Below are positions 18,457 to 61,955 of a stretch of 64,000 nucleotides of DNA, piece after piece. Position 1 is the stretch's first letter. Every line of letters starts with the position of its first letter. Made by a program: the position numbers and the translations under genes. Source of the DNA: Paenibacillus kyungheensis (GTDB lineage Bacteria > Bacillota > Bacilli > Paenibacillales > Paenibacillaceae); contig NZ_CP117416.1 in NCBI RefSeq assembly GCF_028606985.1, positions 1,898,001 through 1,962,000 of the forward strand, in the 5' to 3' direction. The notes below the pieces were generated by a model. The model had not been told where the DNA came from and made no database searches. It worked only from the letters and a program-made list of their open reading frames with translations.

Positions 18457-18510
18457 TCTATACACTAGCCGATGACCCTATTTTTGTCAGTGTAGAGGAG
18501 ATGGATAGAG

Positions 18511-46573: not shown

Positions 46574-46635
46574 CTTGTTATCTATACCCCAATGTAGGCA
46601 ACGCTCAAGTAGAAACAATGATAGGAGGGATTACT

Positions 46636-48780
46636 ATGAATATTGGATCACTATTCCGTGGACTTATAGGAGATAGCAAACCAGGTGAAGCACGACAAAT
46701 GGAATTAAAAGAAGGACAAGTTGTCCGCGGAGTGGTGACAAGCGTATCTGAAGATGGACAAGAAGCTGTTGTCCAAATTCAAGGAGTCAAAGTAAGAGCC
46801 AAATTAGAGACTCCTTTACAACAAGGCGCAACCACTTTACTACAAGTACAGCCTCCTGATCAAGATGGAATGCCTGTGCTCAAACCTGTAGCAGGAAATC
46901 CAGCGAATCCTTTACCTAATGCATCTATGGGAGAAGTATTAGATTCGTTTAATTTACCAGATACCAAAGAAAATCGTGAAATGATTACTCAAATGAGAGC
47001 ATCCGGTATCACACTTAATGCAGATAACGTCAAAAATATACAAGCTACTCTTTCTCAAAAGCCAGCCGGTGTACCTGTAGGAGAATGGGTGCAATCTGCG
47101 GCGGTAGCTATTCAACGAGGTCTACCTGTTACAGCACAAAGCGTGAGCGGGCTACAACAAGCGATATTCGGACCTCCGCTTCATGATCTATTAAGTAATC
47201 TGGATAATCTTGTTCGTGCTACAGTGACACAAGTACAAGACAATGCAGCCAATGTAAATACAGGCACAAATGCCAATCAAGACCCAGAGACTGTATCTAC
47301 AAACACATCTGGAAATAACCCGGCAGTTAACGGAAATACCAATCCAGCACAAAGCAATAACACAACATCTGCTTTACTGGGAAAATTACAGACTGTGCTT
47401 GATCAATTAGGAAGTATAGTGGCTCAATCTGGAGATCAGGCTACAGATGCAACTGGTGGTAAATTAACTTCACCAGCTGTACCGAATCCTACTGTGCCTC
47501 AAGCACCAACAGCATCAGCGACGGTACCAACAGTCAATACTCAAGCACAACAAGCAGATGATATCACTCCATCTGCTTCGACAACGGTTAGCCCATCGTT
47601 ATCTGCAACAACAGATGATGCCGAACCTGTTACAGCGAACTCTACAAATACAGCATCAACAGTCAATCCCAAAGTTCAAACCACAGAACCCTGGTTAGGT
47701 CGTGTGCTGAAATTATTAGGAGCAGAGCATGAACAACAGATGGTACGTGCAAGTGTTAATAACTCTTCACCTGAAGCAGTAGCTACACGCACTGAGCAGA
47801 CACCAGCATCTCTAAGTGCTAATGGGCTAACGCAAGCACAGGCATCTCTAGATCCGGCAACGTCTCGTAATGGAAATCCAGCTCTTGCGCCTAATGTACT
47901 GAATAGTACATTAAATACTGGAGTAGAAGAGCAATTACCTGCACCTGCGTCTCGTGTTGCGAATGCTGCGAATCCGAATGCACTGCAACAAACAGCAGCT
48001 AATGAGTTACTAATAGATCCAGAAGTAGAATTAAACAATCCAGCAACTAGCAAACAAGCCACTACCAATGCACAGACAGTAGTGAACGGGCAAAATGTAC
48101 CAACAGATGATCTTTTACCGAATGCTGCTCTGTTGAAAAATGCTAATAGTCTAGAAGCCACCAATCCGTCTCATATCGCTCAACAGATGGCTTCTCATAC
48201 AGATGATGCGGTTAGTAAAGCTCAAGATACTTTAAAAGGGCTTTTGCTTCAATTAACTGCCGCAGATGATGTGCCACCTGCACTGAAAGATGCTGCACAA
48301 CAATTGGTTCAGCAATTAACCGGTCAGCAATTATTATTAAATACTGATCGTACAGCACCCTTTGCACAAGTAACGATGTTTGTCCCGTTTAGAGGACCAG
48401 ACGGACAAGAAACGGCTTCCGTACAGATTCAGTCTCGTCGTGGCCCTAAAGGAGAACTAGACGCTTCTAACTGCCGTCTATGGTTCGATCTCGATATGCA
48501 TTCATTAGGACCAACACTTGTCGATGTGCATGTAGTAGACAAAATTGTGACTCTTAAAGTGCATAATGATCTAGAACAGCTTGCTCCGCTTGTCGAAAGT
48601 AAACGCGAAGAGATGGCTACTGCTATGGGAGCGCTCGGATACCAATTGCTATCGCTCAAAGTAGATACGATGCCAGTTCGATCAGATACAGTGAACGACA
48701 ACAGTCTTGGCATGTCAGATAGCGATCTTTTACAACGGTATGCACCGCCTGATTACAAAGGGGTGGATATGAAAATATGA
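46636..48780 (+). CDS. ylqG: FliK-like (YlqG-type) hook-length-control homologue
   Basis: This 714-residue protein has an ordered N-terminal part (about 1-210). It is followed by a long low-complexity linker rich in Asn, Thr, Ala, Gln, Ser and Pro (about 210-510) and a C-terminal domain (about 520-700: VTMFVPFRGPDGQET, SNCRLWFDLDMHSLGPTLVDV) resembling the FliK/Flg_hook domain. The start at 46636 follows ATAGGAGGG; the ATG at 46618 has no site. It overlaps the FlhB-like gene by 4 bp, the same pairing as ylqG-ylqH in Bacillus subtilis. Its function away from the flagellum operon is not known. Confidence 0.72.
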   Translation: MNIGSLFRGLIGDSKPGEARQMELKEGQVVRGVVTSVSEDGQEAVVQIQGVKVRAKLETPLQQGATTLLQVQPPDQDGMPVLKPVAGNPANPLPNASMGEVLDSFNLPDTKENREMITQMRASGITLNADNVKNIQATLSQKPAGVPVGEWVQSAAVAIQRGLPVTAQSVSGLQQAIFGPPLHDLLSNLDNLVRATVTQVQDNAANVNTGTNANQDPETVSTNTSGNNPAVNGNTNPAQSNNTTSALLGKLQTVLDQLGSIVAQSGDQATDATGGKLTSPAVPNPTVPQAPTASATVPTVNTQAQQADDITPSASTTVSPSLSATTDDAEPVTANSTNTASTVNPKVQTTEPWLGRVLKLLGAEHEQQMVRASVNNSSPEAVATRTEQTPASLSANGLTQAQASLDPATSRNGNPALAPNVLNSTLNTGVEEQLPAPASRVANAANPNALQQTAANELLIDPEVELNNPATSKQATTNAQTVVNGQNVPTDDLLPNAALLKNANSLEATNPSHIAQQMASHTDDAVSKAQDTLKGLLLQLTAADDVPPALKDAAQQLVQQLTGQQLLLNTDRTAPFAQVTMFVPFRGPDGQETASVQIQSRRGPKGELDASNCRLWFDLDMHSLGPTLVDVHVVDKIVTLKVHNDLEQLAPLVESKREEMATAMGALGYQLLSLKVDTMPVRSDTVNDNSLGMSDSDLLQRYAPPDYKGVDMKI

Positions 48781-49484: not shown

Positions 49485-49568
49485 CACCCTTTTTCAGTAA
49501 ACCATCATGTATATCCGCACTGTGATCAGGAGCGAGATTTAGAAGGTTTTGAAGAAAGGGTGTTTTTT
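49485..49568 (+). promoter_or_regulatory. terminator-like hairpin containing the yifB ribosome binding site
   Basis: CACCCTTTTTC (49485-49495) can pair with GAA-AAAGGGTG (49551-49562), which is followed directly by TTTTTT. The 3' arm AAAGGGTG is also the ribosome binding site of yifB. The loop is about 55 nt. It may be a terminator for the upstream operon, an attenuator, or a structure that hides the yifB start. Confidence 0.5.
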
Positions 49569-49571
49569 GGT

Positions 49572-51335
49572 ATGTATGGTAAATTATTTAGCGCTTGTTT
49601 ACAGGGAATCAATGGAGTAATGGTTGAAGTAGAGACCGATTTGTCAAATGGTCTACCGATGGTAGCTATTATCGGGTTGCCAGATTCAGCTATTCGAGAA
49701 TCAATCGAAAGAGTACGTTCAGCTATCAAAAATTGTGGGTTTACTTTTCCTAATCAACGAGTAACAATCAATCTAGCACCAGCTGATTTGCGTAAAGAAG
49801 GATCGGCTTTTGATCTTGCAATTGCTATGGGGATTTTGACCACAAGTGATCAGATTATATTACCTGATGCAGAGCAAATGTTACTGATCGGAGAATTAGC
49901 ATTAGATGGTACATTGCGACCTGTGCCGGGTGTATTATCAATGGTAGATACAGCTCGTCAACATGGTTTGAAATCGGTATTGGTTCCTCAAGAAAATGCA
50001 GCAGAAGCAGTATTGGTTGAAGGAATCAATGTATATGCAATTCATCATTTAAATGATTTATTTGCGGATGCACCACATCAGCCTACTATCTCAAAAGACC
50101 AATCCGCCCAGCAGGATCATATCGAATCATTTCGAATGTCTTTGCCAGGTCAACCGGAGATTGTAGTCAAACAAATCCAGACCAACTCGTCTTCAAATGA
50201 TCCTATAAATACATCTCAATCTGTTAAAGATATATCAGGTATAACTAAAAAGAAATCCGATCCACGTAAAGTGGTAGTGCTTCCGCCATTACTTGTGCAA
50301 AGATCAAAAAAGCAATATATCAACCATTCTGTTTCAACGATGCAAGAAGATTATGGAGATGTATTTGGGCAACAACATGTGAAGCGAGCATTGATGATTG
50401 CTGCTGCGGGAATGCATAATATTTTGTTACTGGGACCGCCGGGTACAGGGAAGACGATGCTCATTAAACGTCTACCTACGATTTTACCGGTATTAACTGA
50501 CTCGGAAGCATTGGAAGTGACTAAGATTTTTAGTGTATCAGGACGATTCAAAGACTCTAACGCTGGCTTGATCTCTGTACGTCCTTTTCGTGCGCCTCAT
50601 CACAGTACAACAGTCACAGGGTTGATTGGAGGAGGAAGTATACCCAAGCCAGGAGAAGTGAGCCTAGCGCATCAAGGCATTTTATTTTTAGATGAATTGC
50701 CAGAATTTCCGAGATCGGTATTAGAAGTATTGCGACAACCATTAGAAGATCATCAAGTGACAATCAGCCGTGCACGAGCGGTGTTTTCATTTCCAGCTAA
50801 TTTCTTATTAGCAGGTTCAATGAATCCATGTCCTTGTGGATATCTTGGAAGTACCCATGCGGCTCATCCTTGTACTTGTAGCCATAGTCAAATTGCTCGT
50901 TATCGCTCCAAAATATCAGGTCCTTTGTTAGATCGGATAGATCTGCAAATAGAAGTGCCTCGACCTACCGAGCAAGACTGGCAACGGGCAAAAGCTGGAA
51001 CAGAAGATATCGGTTACGATTCGGCTAGTATGCGCACAATCGTAGAGAAAGCGCATCAGATTCAATTGAAACGATATCAGCATTTGGATATTCATTGGAA
51101 TAGTGAATTGTCGGGTAAATGGTTACGAGAGTATACATTCTTATCAGATGCAGGTAATCAATTACTAGAAACAGCATTTGAACAATTAGGTATGAGTATG
51201 CGAGCTAGAGATCGCATTTTGAAATTGGCAAGAACGATTGCTGATCTGGAAAATATGGAGCAGATTGAAGCGGTTCATATTGCAGAAGCGATTCAATATC
51301 GGCAATTGGATCTTAGTCAGCCAGTGAATGGATAA
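49572..51335 (+). CDS. comM: YifB/ComM-family AAA ATPase (Mg-chelatase-like)
   Basis: This 587-residue YifB-family protein has an N-terminal ChlI domain of the Lon-protease fold (about 1-165), a AAA+ Mg-chelatase domain with Walker A GPPGTGKT (288-295) and AGSMNPCPCGYLG, and a C-terminal domain (about 480-587). ComM is a hexameric helicase that drives branch migration in natural transformation in Gram-negatives. It is longer than the usual about 510 residues because of a polar linker of roughly 80 residues (about 171-255). ATG 49572 is preferred to GTG 49560, which lies inside the ribosome binding site. Core synteny ends with this gene. Confidence 0.9.
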   Translation: MYGKLFSACLQGINGVMVEVETDLSNGLPMVAIIGLPDSAIRESIERVRSAIKNCGFTFPNQRVTINLAPADLRKEGSAFDLAIAMGILTTSDQIILPDAEQMLLIGELALDGTLRPVPGVLSMVDTARQHGLKSVLVPQENAAEAVLVEGINVYAIHHLNDLFADAPHQPTISKDQSAQQDHIESFRMSLPGQPEIVVKQIQTNSSSNDPINTSQSVKDISGITKKKSDPRKVVVLPPLLVQRSKKQYINHSVSTMQEDYGDVFGQQHVKRALMIAAAGMHNILLLGPPGTGKTMLIKRLPTILPVLTDSEALEVTKIFSVSGRFKDSNAGLISVRPFRAPHHSTTVTGLIGGGSIPKPGEVSLAHQGILFLDELPEFPRSVLEVLRQPLEDHQVTISRARAVFSFPANFLLAGSMNPCPCGYLGSTHAAHPCTCSHSQIARYRSKISGPLLDRIDLQIEVPRPTEQDWQRAKAGTEDIGYDSASMRTIVEKAHQIQLKRYQHLDIHWNSELSGKWLREYTFLSDAGNQLLETAFEQLGMSMRARDRILKLARTIADLENMEQIEAVHIAEAIQYRQLDLSQPVNG

Positions 51336-51372
51336 GTAGTGTTATGTATCAATAGAAGATAGATTAAAGAGT

Positions 51373-51414
51373 GACAAGAAGGAATGACTAATGTGATTCC
51401 TTCTTGTCTTTTTT
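51373..51414 (+). terminator. bidirectional terminator between yifB and the monooxygenase gene
   Basis: GACAAGAAGGAAT (51373-51385) pairs perfectly with ATTCCTTCTTGTC (51396-51408), followed by TTTTTT. It separates the convergent genes. Confidence 0.88.
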
Positions 51415-51434
51415 GTTCATTTGCATCATATATT

Positions 51435-53015
51435 CTATTTTACTGGAGTATGTGAGCAATAGATGGAATTTAAATATTGCAAAATAGACGATGATTCTTC
51501 TATAGAAGTACGTAGTGCAATATAGCCATCTGGACGGATTAATAGGAGTTCTTCACTTAATATATTGTAAATTCGATAAGCATTTCCTGCGTGATCAATG
51601 ATATGATCTGTTCTCTTTGTATCAGATGGAAGTATACAATATAGTCGAAGCTGATCATGAATAAGATTTTCTAATACAGAAGAGTCAGTATGATTTACAA
51701 AAGCCAAAACTGTCCAATGTGTACCACGGAGCAGATCAAAAATATTTCCAGAGAATTCTTTGTTTTGCAGAATATCAGCATTAGGAGCACGATCTCCAGG
51801 TAATAAAAGAAGAGTATCTTTTCCAGTAAATGAACGAGTAAGAGAACTGGAGCGATAGGAAATAGGAAGCCCGCTTGTCAGATCATCGGATACTGTACTT
51901 AAAGATTGCGACAAGGATCTACTTTCAGTCACCGTTGCAGTAATTGCTTTGATTTTCTTAGAACTATCTTGAAGAACAGCTTGAGCAATAGGACGGCGTT
52001 CTTCATCATAAGTATGCAGTAAAGTAGCATCTGCTCCTTGAAGGACAGCGGCTAGCTTCCATCCAAGATTGTAAGCATCTTGTATACCTGTATTCATACC
52101 CTGACCTCCTGCTGGAGAATGAACATGTGCTGCATCACCAGCAAGGAATACTCTGTTGTTATGATAACATTCCACCATCCGCACATTAACTCGGTAAATA
52201 GACAACCATGATGCATGAGTGATCTTAACAAGACCGGCACCAGCACGCTGATCCAACATAGCTTGATACATTTCTAATGATGGCTCTGCGGGGTTTTGAA
52301 TTTCTGTTGGAATAGTAGCTTGTAGTTGCCAAATATTTGATTTGGGTAGTGGAGTTAGTCCTAACATTCCTTCTGAAGATGTCCAAATATGAATATGATC
52401 ATGATCCAGACCTTCTAATTGGATATCTCCAAGATACCACCGCTCATCATCATATGTTTCCCCAACCAGTGGCAATTGAATAAACTTACGAATATTACTT
52501 TTACCACCATCCGCACCGACTACATAACGAGCATGAATTTGCTCTTCTCCTTGTGGTGTCTTGACCGTTACTGTTACTCCATTCAAATCTTGAATAAGTT
52601 GTACCGCTTCTACGCCTAACTCGACTTGACCACCAAGAACAGCATAGCGATCACGTAATGCTTTTTCTACATCAAATTGAGCAATCCAGACTGGATTAAG
52701 GTAAGGTGTCTCAAACTTACTACTGACAGCCACAGTAATAGAAGGTCTATCTATACTTTTACCATCTGGAGTATGATAACGAACAGGCAAATCTACAACA
52801 CCTGTGTCCAGAATGTAATCAATCGCTTCCAAATCATCAACGACTTCAAGTGAACGAGGTTGAATAGCTTTGGAGCGTGATGCTACGTTATAGACGGGAT
52901 TTTTATCAATGATACGATGGTTAATGTGTCGACGTGCAAGATCACAAGCGAGTGTAAGTCCTGTAGGCCCAGCTCCAACAATAAGCACATCAACAGAAGA
53001 AAATAGAGTGTCCAT
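51435..53015 (-). CDS. FAD-dependent aromatic-ring-type monooxygenase
   Basis: This 526-residue group A flavoprotein monooxygenase of the PheA/TfdB/rifampicin-monooxygenase type has the dinucleotide fold GAGPTG (14-19), the FAD/NAD(P)H motif GADGGKSNIRK, and the flavin-ribityl motif FLAGDAAHVHSPAGGQGMN. A thioredoxin-like C-terminal domain follows (about 400-520). Members hydroxylate phenolic compounds or inactivate antibiotics such as rifamycins and tetracyclines; the substrate here is not readable. It is divergent from a TetR-family gene, so it is probably induced by its substrate. AAGGAGG precedes the ATG. Confidence 0.82.
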   Translation of the reverse strand: MDTLFSSVDVLIVGAGPTGLTLACDLARRHINHRIIDKNPVYNVASRSKAIQPRSLEVVDDLEAIDYILDTGVVDLPVRYHTPDGKSIDRPSITVAVSSKFETPYLNPVWIAQFDVEKALRDRYAVLGGQVELGVEAVQLIQDLNGVTVTVKTPQGEEQIHARYVVGADGGKSNIRKFIQLPLVGETYDDERWYLGDIQLEGLDHDHIHIWTSSEGMLGLTPLPKSNIWQLQATIPTEIQNPAEPSLEMYQAMLDQRAGAGLVKITHASWLSIYRVNVRMVECYHNNRVFLAGDAAHVHSPAGGQGMNTGIQDAYNLGWKLAAVLQGADATLLHTYDEERRPIAQAVLQDSSKKIKAITATVTESRSLSQSLSTVSDDLTSGLPISYRSSSLTRSFTGKDTLLLLPGDRAPNADILQNKEFSGNIFDLLRGTHWTVLAFVNHTDSSVLENLIHDQLRLYCILPSDTKRTDHIIDHAGNAYRIYNILSEELLLIRPDGYIALRTSIEESSSILQYLNSIYCSHTPVK

Positions 53016-53057
53016 GTATAAAATCCTCCTTGGAATATAGTAGATTATAAATTATAC

Positions 53058-53073
53058 TACACCGTGCAGTGTA
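53058..53073 (+). promoter_or_regulatory. candidate TetR-type operator between the monooxygenase and regulator genes
   Basis: TACAC-CGTGCA-GTGTA is a 16-bp palindrome in the divergent intergenic region, placed to block both promoters. Confidence 0.55.
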
Positions 53074-53134
53074 ATTAGTAAAGTGGAATATGAATCAAAT
53101 TTTGATAATATACTTAATAAGGGGGAATATGAGA

Positions 53135-53764
53135 ATGGATACTATAGAAAATAAAAAGATTCGTAAAGGTTCTTTAGATAAACGAGTTAAAATTATTGAG
53201 GCAGCAAGGGAACTTTTTTTATCTGAAGGATTTAATCAATCGAGTGTTGATGCTGTTGCTAATAGAGCAGGAGTCTCTAAGCGCACAGTGTATGATTATT
53301 ATGGAGATAAACAACACTTATTACTTGCTGTTATGGAAGAAACGAGTGTAACTGTTCTGAATATGATTGAACAAGGGATTTCAGATCACCTTTTGGAATT
53401 TGATGATTTAGAGCAAGCTCTTATTTTATTTTGTGAACAAATTGTTGCCTCTGCAAATGGTTCATCTGATTACAAAGCTTTGATTCGCCTAGCTATGGTA
53501 GAGGTTGCTAATTTGCCAGAATCTTTTTATGAAAATATGGATCAAGCAACAGAGGAAAGTATTATCAAAAGATTTATAGAGTTTGGAAAAAATAAATTAC
53601 TGGATATACCTGATCCTCGTATGGCTGTAAAGCACTTTGTTGCTTTAACTATTCTTCTTGTATTTAATCAGCCGAAACCTGAAGCTTTGGATCAAGAACA
53701 AGTGAAGCATATTATTACTGAAGGTGTACGCGTTTTTCTTCGTGCTTATGCGCCTACTATATAA
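53135..53764 (+). CDS. TetR-family transcriptional regulator
   Basis: This 209-residue TetR repressor has an N-terminal helix-turn-helix (about 18-62: ARELFLSEGFNQSSVDAVAN, VSKRTVYDYYGDKQHLL) and a helical ligand-binding domain. The AGGGGG site supports ATG 53135; ATG 53129 is also possible. It is divergent from the FAD monooxygenase and probably represses it. It is more AT-rich than the core genes, consistent with an accessory origin. Confidence 0.85.
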   Translation: MDTIENKKIRKGSLDKRVKIIEAARELFLSEGFNQSSVDAVANRAGVSKRTVYDYYGDKQHLLLAVMEETSVTVLNMIEQGISDHLLEFDDLEQALILFCEQIVASANGSSDYKALIRLAMVEVANLPESFYENMDQATEESIIKRFIEFGKNKLLDIPDPRMAVKHFVALTILLVFNQPKPEALDQEQVKHIITEGVRVFLRAYAPTI

Positions 53765-53766
53765 TC

Positions 53767-53803
53767 AAAAAGAGAAGTGGCTATAATAGCTACTTCTCTT
53801 TTC
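53767..53803 (+). terminator. terminator of the TetR gene
   Basis: AAAAGAGAAGTGGCTA pairs with TAGCTACTTCTCTTTT around TAA. Confidence 0.85.
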
Positions 53804-53824
53804 TAAGATGACGTCATCTCTAAC

Positions 53825-54083
53825 ATACATCAAATGTGTAATCACTAAAGTATTTTTTGCTCAACTATTGCCTAACGTAATCACCTGACATTAACGGTGG
53901 ATCACTCTACTATGATAATTAATTTCGATGCCTTTATCAGCTAGACGTGGTAATATTGCTTGAACTTCTATATGTATTGTTTTTGACTCATATCTACAAT
54001 ATATCGATTTAACTTTTCAGCAACTGTTGCATAAAATTTTTGCTGTAACTGGGAGTTTTGCTCTTTTCCAATGTGATAGCTTA
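53825..54083 (-). pseudogene. decayed 3' fragment of a second Rep_3 initiator gene
   Basis: This stretch is clearly similar, over its whole length and in the same orientation, to 55389-55650, the last third of the intact rep gene. Shared blocks include AAAGTATTTTTTG, CACCTGACATTAA, GTGGATCAC, GCTTGAACTTCTAT, TTGACTCATAT and TTTAACTTTTCAGC. Substitutions and small indels break the reading frame and no start is present. The two copies are direct repeats of about 260 bp flanking the GH18 gene. Gap 53765-54185 holds this remnant and the TetR terminator only. Confidence 0.82.
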
Positions 54084-54185
54084 ATTATATATATGACATA
54101 TGTATTTATGGAATATAATGGTACTATATGATAAACATAAAAGATATGCTCTGTAAGACATAATCGTTAGTAGAGAGGAACACAT

Positions 54186-55259
54186 ATGACTAGAAAAAGT
54201 ACGTTTATTGTAGTGATGGTAGTTGGTATATTTATGATTTGTACAGCGATTGGATGGGCATCTGGTAGTAAAGGCAAATCAATAGCACAGACAAAGCCAC
54301 TTGTACTTGGTTATTATACTGATGCATCGCCAGCAGCATTTAATAAATATCACAATTATATGAATCAAATGTCTACAGATACATTAAACACAGATGGATC
54401 TGGCAATCTGATCGGGAGCGTTCCTAAGCAAGCTGTTCAACAAGCGAATAAGTGGAAGATCGATACATTTGCGCTTGTTTCTAACTACGGGGAAACAGAT
54501 TGGGATCCAGAAGCTGCACATGACGTAATAACAGACCCTATAGCCAAGAAAAAGCTAATTGCAGGACTTTTACAAACTGTTCAACAAAATCAATATCGAG
54601 GGGTTAATCTAGACTTTGAATCTCTGGTGTCAGCAGACCGTCAAGCACTTAGCACCTTTGTACGAGATACAGCCAAAGTCATGAAAGCTAATGGATTTCA
54701 AACGATGGTATCTGTACCCGCCAAACAGAAAGATGATCCTAAAGATGGCTGGTCTGGAGCCTATGATTATAAAGCGATCGGAAGCGCAGTAGATTGGTTA
54801 CAAGTGATGACCTATGATGAACATGGCGTATGGAGTGAGCCTGGTTCTTCTGCCGGCAAAGAGTGGATACAATCTTCACTCGCTTTTGCTGTAAAGCAAG
54901 TACCTTCCAATAAAGTATTAATGGGATTACCAGCATACGGTAATGATTGGAATGTTACACAGACTACACAAGAACATGATGATCAAAATGTGATGCTCAG
55001 TTGGAAAGACACTCCAGCTTTACTGGCAAAATATCATCTTACGGGTAAACGAGATAACGTTTCTGGTTCTATGATCGCACGCTATACAGATAGTCAAGGC
55101 GATCAACATGAGGTGTGGTATGAAGATGCAACAAGTATTGAGCAAAAAGCAAAACTTTCTCAGCAATACAATCTTGCCGGGGTATCTATGTATGCGATAG
55201 GTATGGAAGATCAACAGTTCTGGCAGGCAGTACAAAAAGGAGTCAGCGCAACAAAATAA
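54186..55259 (+). CDS. secreted or membrane-anchored GH18-family glycosidase
   Basis: This 357-residue protein has an N-terminal signal/anchor segment (about 7-25) and a GH18 TIM-barrel related to YaaH/YdhD-type spore peptidoglycan hydrolases. The catalytic strand reads GVNLDFESL, with D143 and the proton donor E145; VDWLQVMTYDEHG and KVLMGLPAYGNDW are further family motifs. No LysM or other binding module is visible. It probably cleaves peptidoglycan or chitin-like polymers outside the cell. AGAGAGG precedes the ATG. It lies between a rep remnant and the intact rep gene, on the opposite strand to both. Confidence 0.8.
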   Translation: MTRKSTFIVVMVVGIFMICTAIGWASGSKGKSIAQTKPLVLGYYTDASPAAFNKYHNYMNQMSTDTLNTDGSGNLIGSVPKQAVQQANKWKIDTFALVSNYGETDWDPEAAHDVITDPIAKKKLIAGLLQTVQQNQYRGVNLDFESLVSADRQALSTFVRDTAKVMKANGFQTMVSVPAKQKDDPKDGWSGAYDYKAIGSAVDWLQVMTYDEHGVWSEPGSSAGKEWIQSSLAFAVKQVPSNKVLMGLPAYGNDWNVTQTTQEHDDQNVMLSWKDTPALLAKYHLTGKRDNVSGSMIARYTDSQGDQHEVWYEDATSIEQKAKLSQQYNLAGVSMYAIGMEDQQFWQAVQKGVSATK

Positions 55260-55329
55260 ATAATTATTGTATTAGTAGTAGCTGGCAGAAGAAATGTAGG
55301 ATTTTCCAGTATAAACACAGTGAAATGTA

Positions 55330-55365
55330 AAAAAAAGAACTACTCTATAGAGTGGTTCTTTTTTC
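55330..55365. terminator. hairpin between the GH18 and rep genes, shared terminator
   Basis: AAAAAAGAAC-TACTCTATAGAGT-GGTTCTTTTTT forms a near-perfect hairpin (AAAGAACTACTCT with AGAGTGGTTCTTT) with A-rich and T-rich flanks, able to stop transcription from both convergent genes. Confidence 0.75.
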
Positions 55366-56592
55366 ATGTTCAGTTACTTCTGATATAAATACGTCAAACG
55401 TATAATGATAAAAGTATTTTTTGTTCAAATATTGCCTAAAGTAACCACCTGACATTAATTGTGGATCACGAACATCTGCAGTAATGATTTCGATATCTTT
55501 GTCAGCCACACTTTGTAACATCGCTTGAACTTCTATCTCTAACTGTTCTTGACTCATATCCACAATATACTGATTTAACTTTTCAGCCACTGTGGAATAA
55601 TATTGTTGTTGTAACTGGGACTTTTGTTCTTTTTCCAATTTGAGAGCTTGTTGTCGATCCAGTTCGATATCTAGTTCTGTTTTCTTTTTACGATAGTCAT
55701 TTTTTAGAGCAGCGACAGTATAAGCTGGAATATCATGTACACGGCCACTTAGTACATCTATTTTGACCACATCTAGAATCTCTGTAATATATTCTTTTTC
55801 ATACGATTTTAGAATAGTCTGAATCGTGACTGTAGTTAATCCAAATTCTTTTTTTAAACGATCGCTTAACCGATTGGCTGTATGAGGTTGTACAGCAGCT
55901 AATGCTTCGGTAGGAGGAAGAATGGTGACTGTTTGCTTGGCTTTGGTTTTGATCGTAAATACGATTTCATCTACTTTACGACCACTTTTACGTTCTACAT
56001 AATTGAATTCGATATCGGTACTTTTATTGATTTCTTGCTGTGCTTTGGTAATTACACGCTTTTTAAAATCAGAGTACACTGGATACTGATCTTCAATACC
56101 AAGTAATTCTTTTAAACGTTGGACTTTAAGAGTTCGTTGCCCTAACTTTTCGTATTGTTTCAACAGTTCATAAATCCGCATCGAATAAGCACTTTTCAAT
56201 TTTAAAATATCGTTTAACCGAAAAGAAGTGAATTTTTCTTTCAACTGAAGCAGATAAGGTTTTAACTTGGGTGAAAATTCTACTTCGATAATACCTTCAT
56301 TAGGAAAGTATTCAGCAGACGCTAACCAGTTTACTTGTAAGTTTTCATTTATGTAAAAAGGGTGCGACATTAGATTAAGCGTATATTCTTTCACTTGGGC
56401 ATAAATATTTTTGTTTTTAACACCAGCTAATTTGGCGAATTCACTAATCTTAAAACGATATCGTTGAAACTCCTGATCATCAGGCGAAATAATACTAATA
56501 AGTACATAAATAATACGTAACTCTACTACACTCATTTTTAAAGGCATTTCAATAAGATCATTAGACTTTGTAACTAAATTATTTTTCTTCAT
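55345..56592 (-). CDS. plasmid-type replication initiator protein, Rep_3 (RepB) family
   Basis: This 415-residue initiator has the tandem winged-helix Rep_3 domain. WH1 covers about 1-130 (VTKSNDLIEMPLKMSVVELRIIYVLI, broken by the limit here only in description) and WH2 about 130-235 (KSAYSMRIYELLKQYEK and YSDFKKRVITKAQQEI). A Lys/Gln-rich C-terminal extension (about 240-415) makes it longer than usual. Rep_3 proteins bind iterons to start theta replication, or act as repressors as dimers. A GGAGG site precedes ATG 56592. Iterons lie immediately upstream (56783-57179). The frame is intact, so it is either recently acquired or kept under selection. No par, mob or relaxase gene is nearby. Confidence 0.88.
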   Translation of the reverse strand: MKKNNLVTKSNDLIEMPLKMSVVELRIIYVLISIISPDDQEFQRYRFKISEFAKLAGVKNKNIYAQVKEYTLNLMSHPFYINENLQVNWLASAEYFPNEGIIEVEFSPKLKPYLLQLKEKFTSFRLNDILKLKSAYSMRIYELLKQYEKLGQRTLKVQRLKELLGIEDQYPVYSDFKKRVITKAQQEINKSTDIEFNYVERKSGRKVDEIVFTIKTKAKQTVTILPPTEALAAVQPHTANRLSDRLKKEFGLTTVTIQTILKSYEKEYITEILDVVKIDVLSGRVHDIPAYTVAALKNDYRKKKTELDIELDRQQALKLEKEQKSQLQQQYYSTVAEKLNQYIVDMSQEQLEIEVQAMLQSVADKDIEIITADVRDPQLMSGGYFRQYLNKKYFYHYTFDVFISEVTEHEKRTTL

Positions 56593-57328
56593 ATGTTATA
56601 ACCTCCAAGACGTTCCTTCATTATAATAGATTATCTGGTATAAAAGTAGCTTAATCAGCACAATGATTTCCTTTGAGTTGTTTATCTTATTTTACATACC
56701 TTGTTTTTATTGTTTTAAAATATTTACTTGTTTAGCACCTAGTAAATGTGTTGGTACTCATAGCTTTGCAGTCATAATATAAGACAAAAATAGGGTGAAA
56801 GATGGACAATTATAGGGTCAACTATAGACCAAAAGAGGGCAATTCCGAGACAGATTTAGGGTGACACTATAGACAAATGTAGGGTAGAATGCGACAAAAA
56901 TAGGACAAAGTATAGACAATAGTAGGGCATACTATGGACAGAAATAGGGTCTGAATCAACGATCAATATGATCCAATAAAAGCTGAGTGTAAAACGAAAT
57001 GCGACAAAAATAGGGTCATAAATAAGCAAATAATGCTTTTCTACGGACAAAAATAGGGTGATGATACAAAAATCAAAATATTGACCCTATTTTTGTCCAT
57101 AGTAAAGTTAAAATGAGCTTGTTTTGCTGAAAATATACCGAATACAAGCGATTTTAAAGTAAATGACCCTATATTTGTCCGATTTCAATTCATGATCAAA
57201 ATCGATCCTGTATATAAAGCATTTGTACAAAGTATTTGTTAGTACACATATCAGTAACTGTTGCTATAAATGGGTAATGATTAATGTTAAAATATAGAAT
57301 ATACATGAAATAGATGGGAGAGTTGATG
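56593..57328. other. candidate plasmid-type replication origin (divergent rep / sulfite-oxidase-like intergenic region)
   Basis: This 736-bp gene-free region combines an AT-rich stretch beside rep (56640-56760) and the iteron array, the standard parts of a theta-type oriV. No perfect DnaA box (TTATCCACA) was seen. It also must hold the promoters of rep (minus) and of the sulfite-oxidase-fold gene (plus). Confidence 0.65.
56783..57179 (+). repeat. iteron array (12 copies of a 14-bp repeat, 22-bp period)
   Basis: Consensus GACAAAAATAGGGT. Direct copies start at 56783, 56805, 56827, 56849, 56872, 56893, 56915, 56937, 57003 and 57046; inverted copies lie at 57084-57097 and 57166-57179. The first eight are 21-23 bp apart, two helical turns, so they face one side of the DNA. 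The gap to 57003 is 66 bp, three periods. Copies at 56827, 56893 and 56915 are slightly degenerate. The copies at 57045-57059 and 57084-57098 form a perfect 15-bp inverted repeat. Confidence 0.92.
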
Positions 57329-60797: not shown

Positions 60798-61955
60798 ATG
60801 AATATCCATGAATATCAGGGAAAACAAGTACTTAAACAGTACGGAGTAGTAGTACCGGAAGGTAAAGTTGCTTTCACGGTAGAAGAAGCTGTAGAAGCAG
60901 CTCAGTCACTGGGCAGCCCAGTGTGTGTTGTCAAAGCTCAAATTCACGCTGGTGGCCGAGGTAAAGCTGGCGGAGTTAAAGTAGCTAAAAGTCTAGATGA
61001 AGTACGTACGTATGCTCAAGAAATTTTGGGTAAAGTGCTTGTAACGCATCAGACAGGACCTGAAGGAAAAGAAGTAAAACGACTTCTAATCGAAGAAGGC
61101 TGTGATATTCAAAAAGAATATTACATAGGCGTTGTTATCGATCGTGCTACAGGTAGAGTCGTCATGATGGCTTCTGAAGAAGGCGGCACTGAGATTGAAG
61201 AAGTCGCTGAAAAAACACCTGAAAAGATTTTCCGTGAAACTGTAGATCCAGCTATTGGTCTACAAATGTTCCAAGCTCGCAAACTAGCATATGCAATCAA
61301 TATTCCTACTAAGCAAGTGAACAAAGCAGCTAAGTTTATGACTGCCTTGTATACTGCTTTTATCGAAAAAGATTGCTCAATTGCAGAAATCAATCCGCTG
61401 GTTGTAACAGGCGATGGTGAAGTAATTGCTTTGGATGCGAAATTGAACTTTGATTCTAATGCGATCTTTAGACATCCTGATATTCTTGAACTTCGTGATC
61501 TGGATGAAGAAGATGCAAAAGAAATTGAAGCTTCTAAATACGATCTAAGTTATATCGCTCTTGATGGTAACATCGGTTGTATGGTCAACGGTGCAGGTTT
61601 AGCGATGGCTACAATGGATATTATCAAATATTATGGCGGCGAACCGGCTAACTTCCTTGACGTAGGGGGCGGTGCAACAACGGAGAAAGTAACAGAAGCT
61701 TTCAAAATTATTTTGTCCGATAGTAGTGTAAAAGGTATTTTCATTAATATATTTGGTGGTATTATGCGTTGCGATGTTATTGCTAACGGGGTAGTTGAAG
61801 CTGCCAAACAAATCGGTCTGGATCGTCCTTTAGTTGTAAGACTTGAAGGTACGAACGTAGATTTAGGTAAACAAATTCTCGCTGAATCAGGGCTAAACAT
61901 CGTTGCCGCGGATTCTATGGCGGACGGAGCACAGAAGATCGTAGCTCTCGTATAA
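60798..61955 (+). CDS. sucC: succinyl-CoA synthetase, beta subunit
   Basis: This 385-residue ADP-forming subunit has an N-terminal ATP-grasp domain ([32 protein letters not shown]) and a C-terminal ligase domain with [18 protein letters not shown] and GGIMRCD. With SucD it converts succinyl-CoA to succinate while making ATP in the TCA cycle. TAGGAGG precedes the ATG. sucD follows 42 bp later. Confidence 0.97.

Follow-up and report, generated by a model that had tools for sequence, protein, structure and literature searches.

Theta plasmids of the Rep_3 type carry direct iterons spaced about two helical turns apart, an adjoining AT-rich tract and a rep gene downstream. In the Bacillales, Rep_3 (PF01051/PF21205) theta plasmids of Bacillus methanolicus, Brevibacillus and Priestia encode an initiator with two winged-helix domains, as does the Paenibacillus replicon described here. 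This replicon differs from those plasmids in that it lies in the main chromosome as one intact copy, is accompanied by no partition or mobilisation gene among the neighbours scanned, and encodes a Rep to which the listed plasmid Reps are 35-47% identical.

Two other systems combine plasmid-type replication functions with residence in a chromosome. Salmonella genomic island 1 (SGI1) likewise carries a rep gene of its own and a putative origin of the iteron type, but it is also reported to have excision genes and a helper-plasmid trigger, whereas no recombinase was seen at the Paenibacillus loci; its Rep is assigned a RepA_C domain (or another replication protein) (PMC7433901). The fused chromosomes of Vibrio cholerae NSCV strains resemble our case in that oriC shares its chromosome with a plasmid-type origin, and ori2 is reported to be active in NSCV1 and silenced in NSCV2, though functional in isolation (PMC6284228). 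There a whole second chromosome was fused, whereas the Paenibacillus unit is a minimal replicon of ~1.8 kb that occupies three sites in its clade. No description of this replicon was found in the literature searched, which covered few subscription papers.

The DNA analysed here is a 64,000-nucleotide stretch of Paenibacillus kyungheensis (the window; genome G000). Among the 16 genus genomes compared, six contain Rep, and a scan of genome contigs detected it in P. nuruki and P. hunanensis. P. nuruki was taken as genome G006, which has identical ORFs, and the seven carriers discussed below are the six genus genomes plus P. hunanensis.

A Rep_3 initiator gene lies downstream of an iteron array

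The rep gene and the elements surrounding it are as follows.

55331..55364, minus strand: probable rep terminator, an inverted repeat of 17 nt with a T run after it
55345..56592, minus strand: rep, encoding a 415-residue Rep_3 initiator with two winged-helix domains (residues 7-145 and 157-214) and a C-terminal part
56621..56626, minus strand: TATAAT, probable -10 element of the rep promoter, aligned in 7/7 loci
56671..56735, minus strand: AT-rich block separating rep from the array, candidate DNA unwinding element, discernible in 7/7 loci
56783..56950, minus strand: regular array of eight direct iterons, ACCCTATTTTTGTC in the rep reading direction, one every 21-23 bp
57003..57016, minus strand: iteron 9, exact, oriented as the array
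57046..57059, minus strand: iteron 10, exact, one arm of an inverted iteron pair
57084..57097, plus strand: iteron 11, exact, opposite in orientation to the array, second arm of the pair
57166..57179, plus strand: iteron 12, outermost, inverted

The sequence-only reading of this DNA had described an intact minus-strand Rep_3 gene and proposed a search against PF01051. The gene proved to be a complete reading frame of 415 residues without an internal stop (window 55345-56592), and the Pfam search matched both Rep3_N (PF01051, E 1.3e-41, 142.7 bits against a cut-off of 22.4) and Rep3_C (PF21205, E 2.1e-19, 69.9 bits against a cut-off of 21.1). Both winged-helix domains exceed the curated cut-offs, which places the protein among the Rep_3 initiators. 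Relatives of solved structure in the PDB are RepE (1rep and 2z9o, matching residues 3-215) and pi (2nra, residues 72-214); a profile built from seven Rep sequences gave E values of 9.2e-21 for RepE 1rep and 1.6e-14 for pi 2nra. The structure model of Rep itself was of low confidence (pTM 0.33).

Reading upstream from rep, the order is probable promoter, AT-rich block, eight direct iterons and four more iterons ending at 57179. The TATAAT hexamer is free of iteron overlap. All 12 sites previously claimed, which lie within 56783-57179, were recovered, but they are not identical copies: only four match GACAAAAATAGGGT exactly and the other eight carry 1-3 mismatches. The spacing claimed for the first eight agrees with their start positions (56783, 56805, 56827, 56849, 56872, 56893, 56915 and 56937). 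Of the four iterons beyond them, two have the same orientation and two the opposite one, and two make up the inverted pair, whose starts are 38 bp apart in the window and 38-39 bp apart in 7/7 loci. As single-stranded DNA, the segment containing this pair (57036-57107) can form a strong hairpin (z -6.5).

These repeats are more numerous than chance predicts. Allowing up to 3 mismatches, GACAAAAATAGGGT has 19 matches across the 64 kb, where 6.88 are expected on average; 0/100 shuffles reached 19, and 12 of the 19 fall within 400 bp. With a matrix trained on the iterons, the array copies of the window score 15-23 bits. Across 397,500 bases sampled from this chromosome (stretches L139-L158) no site exceeded 14.1 bits, and one further stretch contained a site of 14.4.

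The spacing of the eight direct repeats in the window is characteristic of an iteron theta replicon, and iteron arrays lie upstream of rep in 7/7 loci. The AT-rich tract that had been noted before rep is likewise general: the block can be aligned in all seven loci, and the spacer that carries it is 67-73% AT. DnaA boxes are common, though not universal, at iteron theta origins. Allowing at most one mismatch to the consensus TTATCCACA, we found no DnaA box at a place shared across the loci.

The replicon resides in the main chromosome of one clade

The assembly containing the window consists of one contig of 5,260,882 bases, in which the locus lies at 1.954 Mb. In the stretches sampled, GC skew changes sign at ~0 and again between 2.62 and 2.70 Mb, as at a normal origin and terminus. 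A plasmid or chromid contig, which the sequence-only reading had named as a result that would overturn it, was therefore rejected, as was a second chromosome; the contig is the main chromosome. The flanking genes had been given as yifB on one side and sucCD-dprA on the other. We recovered yifB at 49560 (TIGR00368) and sucC and sucD at 60798 and 61998; dprA, near which the window ends, could be identified only in G009, in the orthologous stretch. Upstream of yifB, a 720-residue protein (46618-48780) has no Pfam or NCBIfam match and evolves fast, with 81% identity within the window's site group and 59-63% between groups.

In a single-gene tree of all 16 genus genomes, which does not include P. 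hunanensis, the six carriers group together as one clade (support 100/100). Searched whole, each of these six genomes contains one intact rep, always beside conserved chromosomal genes, and the ten other genus genomes contain no detectable relative of Rep. The exact iteron core occurs in 6/6 Rep-positive and 0/10 Rep-negative genomes of the genus, and a looser pattern is distributed likewise. This distribution speaks against the possibility, raised at the outset, that the repeats are unrelated to Rep.

Beyond the genus, the seven-sequence Rep profile matched 22 of 394 family genomes, namely the six carriers and 16 genomes of other genera. In the latter the match is confined to positions 5-339 of 411, and the contigs concerned, 20-501 kb long, may be plasmids or fragments of a chromosome. 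None of the six other family Reps checked has the iteron core upstream. The proposed comparison with plasmid homologues also yielded relatives: at least 5000 PLSDB plasmids carry some Rep_3 relative, and 30 among the matches listed are 35-47% identical. All 5000 matches kept fall below 60% identity, and coverage of the query reaches 80% in only one. With the origin region as query, seven PLSDB records matched over 28-56 bases, which we read as chance. No close Rep was present in the plasmid, phage or IMG/VR collections searched.

An origin from a phage or phage-plasmid was considered and rejected, as an IMG/VR scan based on the Rep alignment gave 178 pattern hits and 0 confirmed. Rep matches occur in 19 of 50,697 phage records, all below 60% identity, with ten among the matches listed at 27-35%. 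The iteron 14-mer occurs in 82 IMG/VR stretches, 80 among the matches listed having one match each, again read as chance.

The replicon occupies three chromosomal sites

Comparison of the same locus across related genomes, which had been suggested from the window alone, placed the replicon at three sites, each with collinear Rep-free counterparts. Site A, in G000 and P. nuruki (G006), lies between yifB and a molybdopterin oxidoreductase gene; site B, in G004, G009 and G011, lies beside an aldehyde dehydrogenase gene; and site C, in G001 and P. hunanensis, lies near an amidohydrolase gene. A collinear but Rep-free site was found in another group in 9/9 comparisons made: empty site A in G001, G004 and G009, empty site B in G000, G001 and G006, and empty site C in G000, G004 and G009. 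Ten empty-site stretches contained no convincing remains of rep or iterons; the best scores were 14.4 for an iteron, E 0.36 for rep by tblastn and E 0.027 for the origin by blastn.

At site B, homology with the empty G001 site stops ~80 bases before the outermost G004 iteron. The site-B replicon (L013:8674-11000) occupies the place of an MFS transporter gene in G000 (L125:6587-7810), and this transporter gene has orthologues in G006 and G001. Arrival of the replicon at B may have gone together with loss of the transporter gene. Variable genes adjoin the site-B rep (L013:11123-13844 and L014:11118-13606); six of the eight scanned have no Pfam match, one resembles SUKH-4 immunity proteins and one resembles epimerases.

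At the window locus, the DNA missing from empty site A of G009 includes more than the replicon.

51312..57283 (approximate): island missing from empty site A of G009, with genes for an FAD monooxygenase and a TetR protein, GH18, rep and the origin
53767..54082, minus strand: rep remnant, the decayed 3' end of a second copy, adjoining the TetR gene as the P. nuruki rep does
54186..55259, plus strand: GH18 hydrolase gene between the rep remnant and the intact rep; none there in P. nuruki

The remnant and its downstream hairpin match the 3' end of the P. nuruki rep and the DNA downstream of it, with 79% identity over 308 bases. A second rep-bearing molecule, or a duplication, likely brought GH18 and the intact rep beside a resident copy that later decayed. 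The GH18 of the window is 71% identical to a gene elsewhere in G001, whereas the best P. nuruki match reaches only 25% identity.

Among 30 proteins scanned round sites A, B and C, a set without small ORFs and without the stretches of G009 and P. nuruki, there was no integrase, transposase or resolvase. The loci thus lack the recombinase beside rep that marks an integrative mobile element (ICE or SGI1-like), and relocation has no known engine. No partition or mobilisation gene was present among the neighbouring proteins scanned. PADLOC matched none of ten proteins (eight variable neighbours at B and C, one lipoprotein-like protein of the window, and Rep) to a defence system.

The control loci of plasmids F, P1 and R6K carry extra iterons. 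In arrangement, all five B and C loci resemble them, with further iteron clusters downstream of rep, away from the core array. Because of these clusters, perfect direct repeats of 14-22 bases flank rep, and they are a possible excision route in B and C. Two similar iteron clusters (an 83-base repeat, 86% identical) flank EamA and DHDPS-family genes in a cassette-like arrangement (L016:10541-13047). P. hunanensis (L011) has a comparable repeat pair ~0.4 kb apart, and a lone iteron, GCCCTATTTTTGTC, lies at L011:16095, ~6 kb past the last downstream cluster.

Selection on Rep and its iterons

Within site groups, omega of rep was 0.042 (A), 0.029, 0.035 and 0.044 (B) and 0.041 (C), with dS of 0.73-1.26 and open frames in 7/7; ten neighbouring genes at A had omega values of 0.005-0.161. 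Judged by these substitution patterns, Rep is under strong purifying selection within the site groups. Most simply, the replicon has been chromosomal since the species split within each group. The dS of rep at A (window versus P. nuruki) was 1.06, the highest of eleven genes, with the ten neighbours at 0.18-0.90, and rep dS also exceeded that of aldDH and metE in both B pairs tested. This high dS may reflect weak codon bias, or rep alleles that are older than, or were exchanged between, the chromosomes.

Iteron counts per pair were 12/12 (window and P. nuruki), 10/10 (G004 and G011), 10/10 (G004 and G009) and 9/11 (G001 and P. hunanensis). The equal counts indicate that the arrays were kept in A and B. 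The C array was not kept whole, as in G001 one copy no longer reaches the threshold, and in P. hunanensis a further site lies closer to rep. Conservation was higher at iteron bases than elsewhere in the upstream region: 92 versus 72% identical for the window and P. nuruki (Fisher p 3e-8), 88 versus 64% for G004 and G011 (p 5e-8), 99 versus 92% for G004 and G009 (p 4e-4) and 84 versus 67% for G001 and P. hunanensis (p 2e-4), where the two B pairs share G004 and part of the contrast follows from definition, the iteron matrix having been trained on the same loci. Between groups Rep is 56-67% identical, and the array layout and AT-rich block are still recognisable in 7/7.

Descent of the replicon

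The ratio of Rep dN between A and B to that within A was 7.0, compared with 2.6-11.7 for nine flanking genes, three of which exceed 7.0. With one genome each for B and C, the ratio of B-C to A-B dN was 0.86 for Rep and 0.49-1.18 for flanking genes. As both ratios fall inside the flanking-gene range, the Rep protein has diverged about like a gene that descends with the species. An outgroup-rooted Rep tree recovers A, B and C with their order not resolved, and the single-gene tree of 16 genomes makes B and C sisters (85/77). A single integration with two later relocations is about as economical as three integrations of one co-descending plasmid.

Activity and regulation

GC skew is +0.121 to the left and +0.150 to the right of the window locus. 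No skew switch occurs in the sampled stretches round this locus or round the G009 locus. Since the sign is kept, the locus is not a habitual bidirectional origin, and a routine bidirectional chromosomal origin is unlikely here. By analogy with V. cholerae NSCV2, a chromosomal origin of this type can be intact yet silent. Estimated from sampled skew, the locus lies ~72-75% of the way from origin to terminus in G000 and 75-85% in G009. Local skew puts Rep on the lagging strand (head-on) in 7/7 loci; we give this orientation no weight, as there are only three independent placements and the chance that all are alike is 1 in 4.

The pattern RCCCTAWWWWTGTC matches 47 times among the six carriers and not once in the ten remaining genus genomes. 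Of the 47, 43 are at rep loci, downstream clusters included. The four off-locus matches are fewer than the 13 that a reversed control pattern has in the same six genomes, and they give no sign of a regulon. One exact copy stands alone in the window.

18473..18488, plus strand: solitary exact iteron (16-mer), directly before the Shine-Dalgarno sequence of a GDSL hydrolase gene, ~38 kb from rep

This site is identical in P. nuruki and missing at that place in the four other Rep-positive genomes.

Discussion

The sequence-only reading proposed an integrated or domesticated theta replicon in a chromosome, and the Rep_3 match, the chromosomal contig and the repeats that track Rep support this. We consider it fairly probable that the locus is an intact, selection-maintained and mostly restrained Rep_3 iteron replicon that has become a lasting chromosomal resident in one Paenibacillus clade. 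It looks like a lasting resident replicon, not a decaying plasmid scar.

By extension from Rep_3 and iteron biology, Rep monomers would bind the direct iterons, 21-23 bp apart, cooperatively, and the bound Rep would strain and open the adjacent AT-rich block, where the host replisome would then be loaded. Array binding, opening of the AT-rich block and replisome loading are what a review of Rep biology leads one to expect (PMC4980987). Rep dimers that bridge iterons in the upstream array, the inverted pairs and the downstream clusters of B and C may restrain the origin, as in iteron plasmids. In the chromosome the replicon would normally be silent, or would fire rarely or conditionally. The unit would have descended with the clade and reached its three sites either by leaving and re-entering the chromosome as a small self-replicating circle or through three integrations of one co-descending plasmid. 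In its boldest form the model would describe a 'jumping origin', in which ~1.8 kb of Rep and iterons, without transposase or integrase, excised as a self-replicating circle, reinserted at least twice in the clade and was kept by selection as a conditional second origin. We regard this form as doubtful.

Recurrent integration would explain the three sites without relocation: a plasmid lineage of the clade, not sampled so far, would now and then integrate or recombine with the resident copy and would have been captured three times, with selection acting mostly on the free plasmid. The rep dS above that of its neighbours fits such a history, as does the arrangement in which a rep remnant and an intact rep flank GH18, resembling a second rep-bearing molecule that recombined at the resident copy. 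The other-genus Rep_3 genes on contigs of 20-501 kb, perhaps plasmids, point the same way. However, the site is shared within each group, so that capture most simply predates the species split, and both Rep and the array were constrained after that split. Moreover, the plasmid, phage and IMG/VR collections contained no close Rep, the origin matches in PLSDB span only 28-56 bases, and each of the six carrier genomes holds one intact copy, always beside conserved chromosomal genes. We hold recurrent integration to be rather unlikely. Retention of Rep and array, the inverted iteron pairs and the downstream clusters of B and C would also suit a device that keeps out incoming plasmids bearing the same iterons, through binding and bridging by the resident Rep and iterons. 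Inverted pairs and extra clusters occur in the incompatibility loci of iteron plasmids. SGI1 provides a precedent, with a reported rep-dependent incompatibility of this chromosomal island with a plasmid (PMC7433901). Against such a device, which we judge improbable, no plasmid with the array was found in PLSDB, the ten genus members without Rep have no Rep relative and give no sign that its absence admits such plasmids, and the conserved AT-rich block is unneeded for bridging.

The solitary exact iteron before the GDSL hydrolase gene, identical in P. nuruki, could suggest that Rep has turned into a regulator of chromosomal transcription. Its absence from the same place in four other Rep-positive genomes, and the concentration of 43 of 47 RCCCTAWWWWTGTC matches at the rep locus, with the four elsewhere outnumbered by 13 control matches, make this very improbable. 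A genuine relic does exist 1.3 kb away, the decayed rep 3' end at 53767-54082, and a passive relic of plasmid integration might be imagined for the whole locus. The intact rep, however, has omega values of 0.03-0.04 and open frames in 7/7, and the arrays were kept while synonymous sites changed 0.7-1.3 times each. Unless these constraints have another cause, they contradict a passive relic, which we find scarcely credible.

As a rule a bacterial chromosome has a single origin, and a plasmid origin that integrates there would be expected to fall silent and be lost. Here a plasmid-type initiator and its origin architecture, in our favoured reading a mostly restrained resident replicon, have been kept in the chromosome of every clade member found, at three sites, over a time in which each synonymous site changed about once. 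The named isolates P. nuruki and P. hunanensis would offer a natural system for studying a plasmid-type second origin: whether it fires, when it does so and what benefit it may bring.
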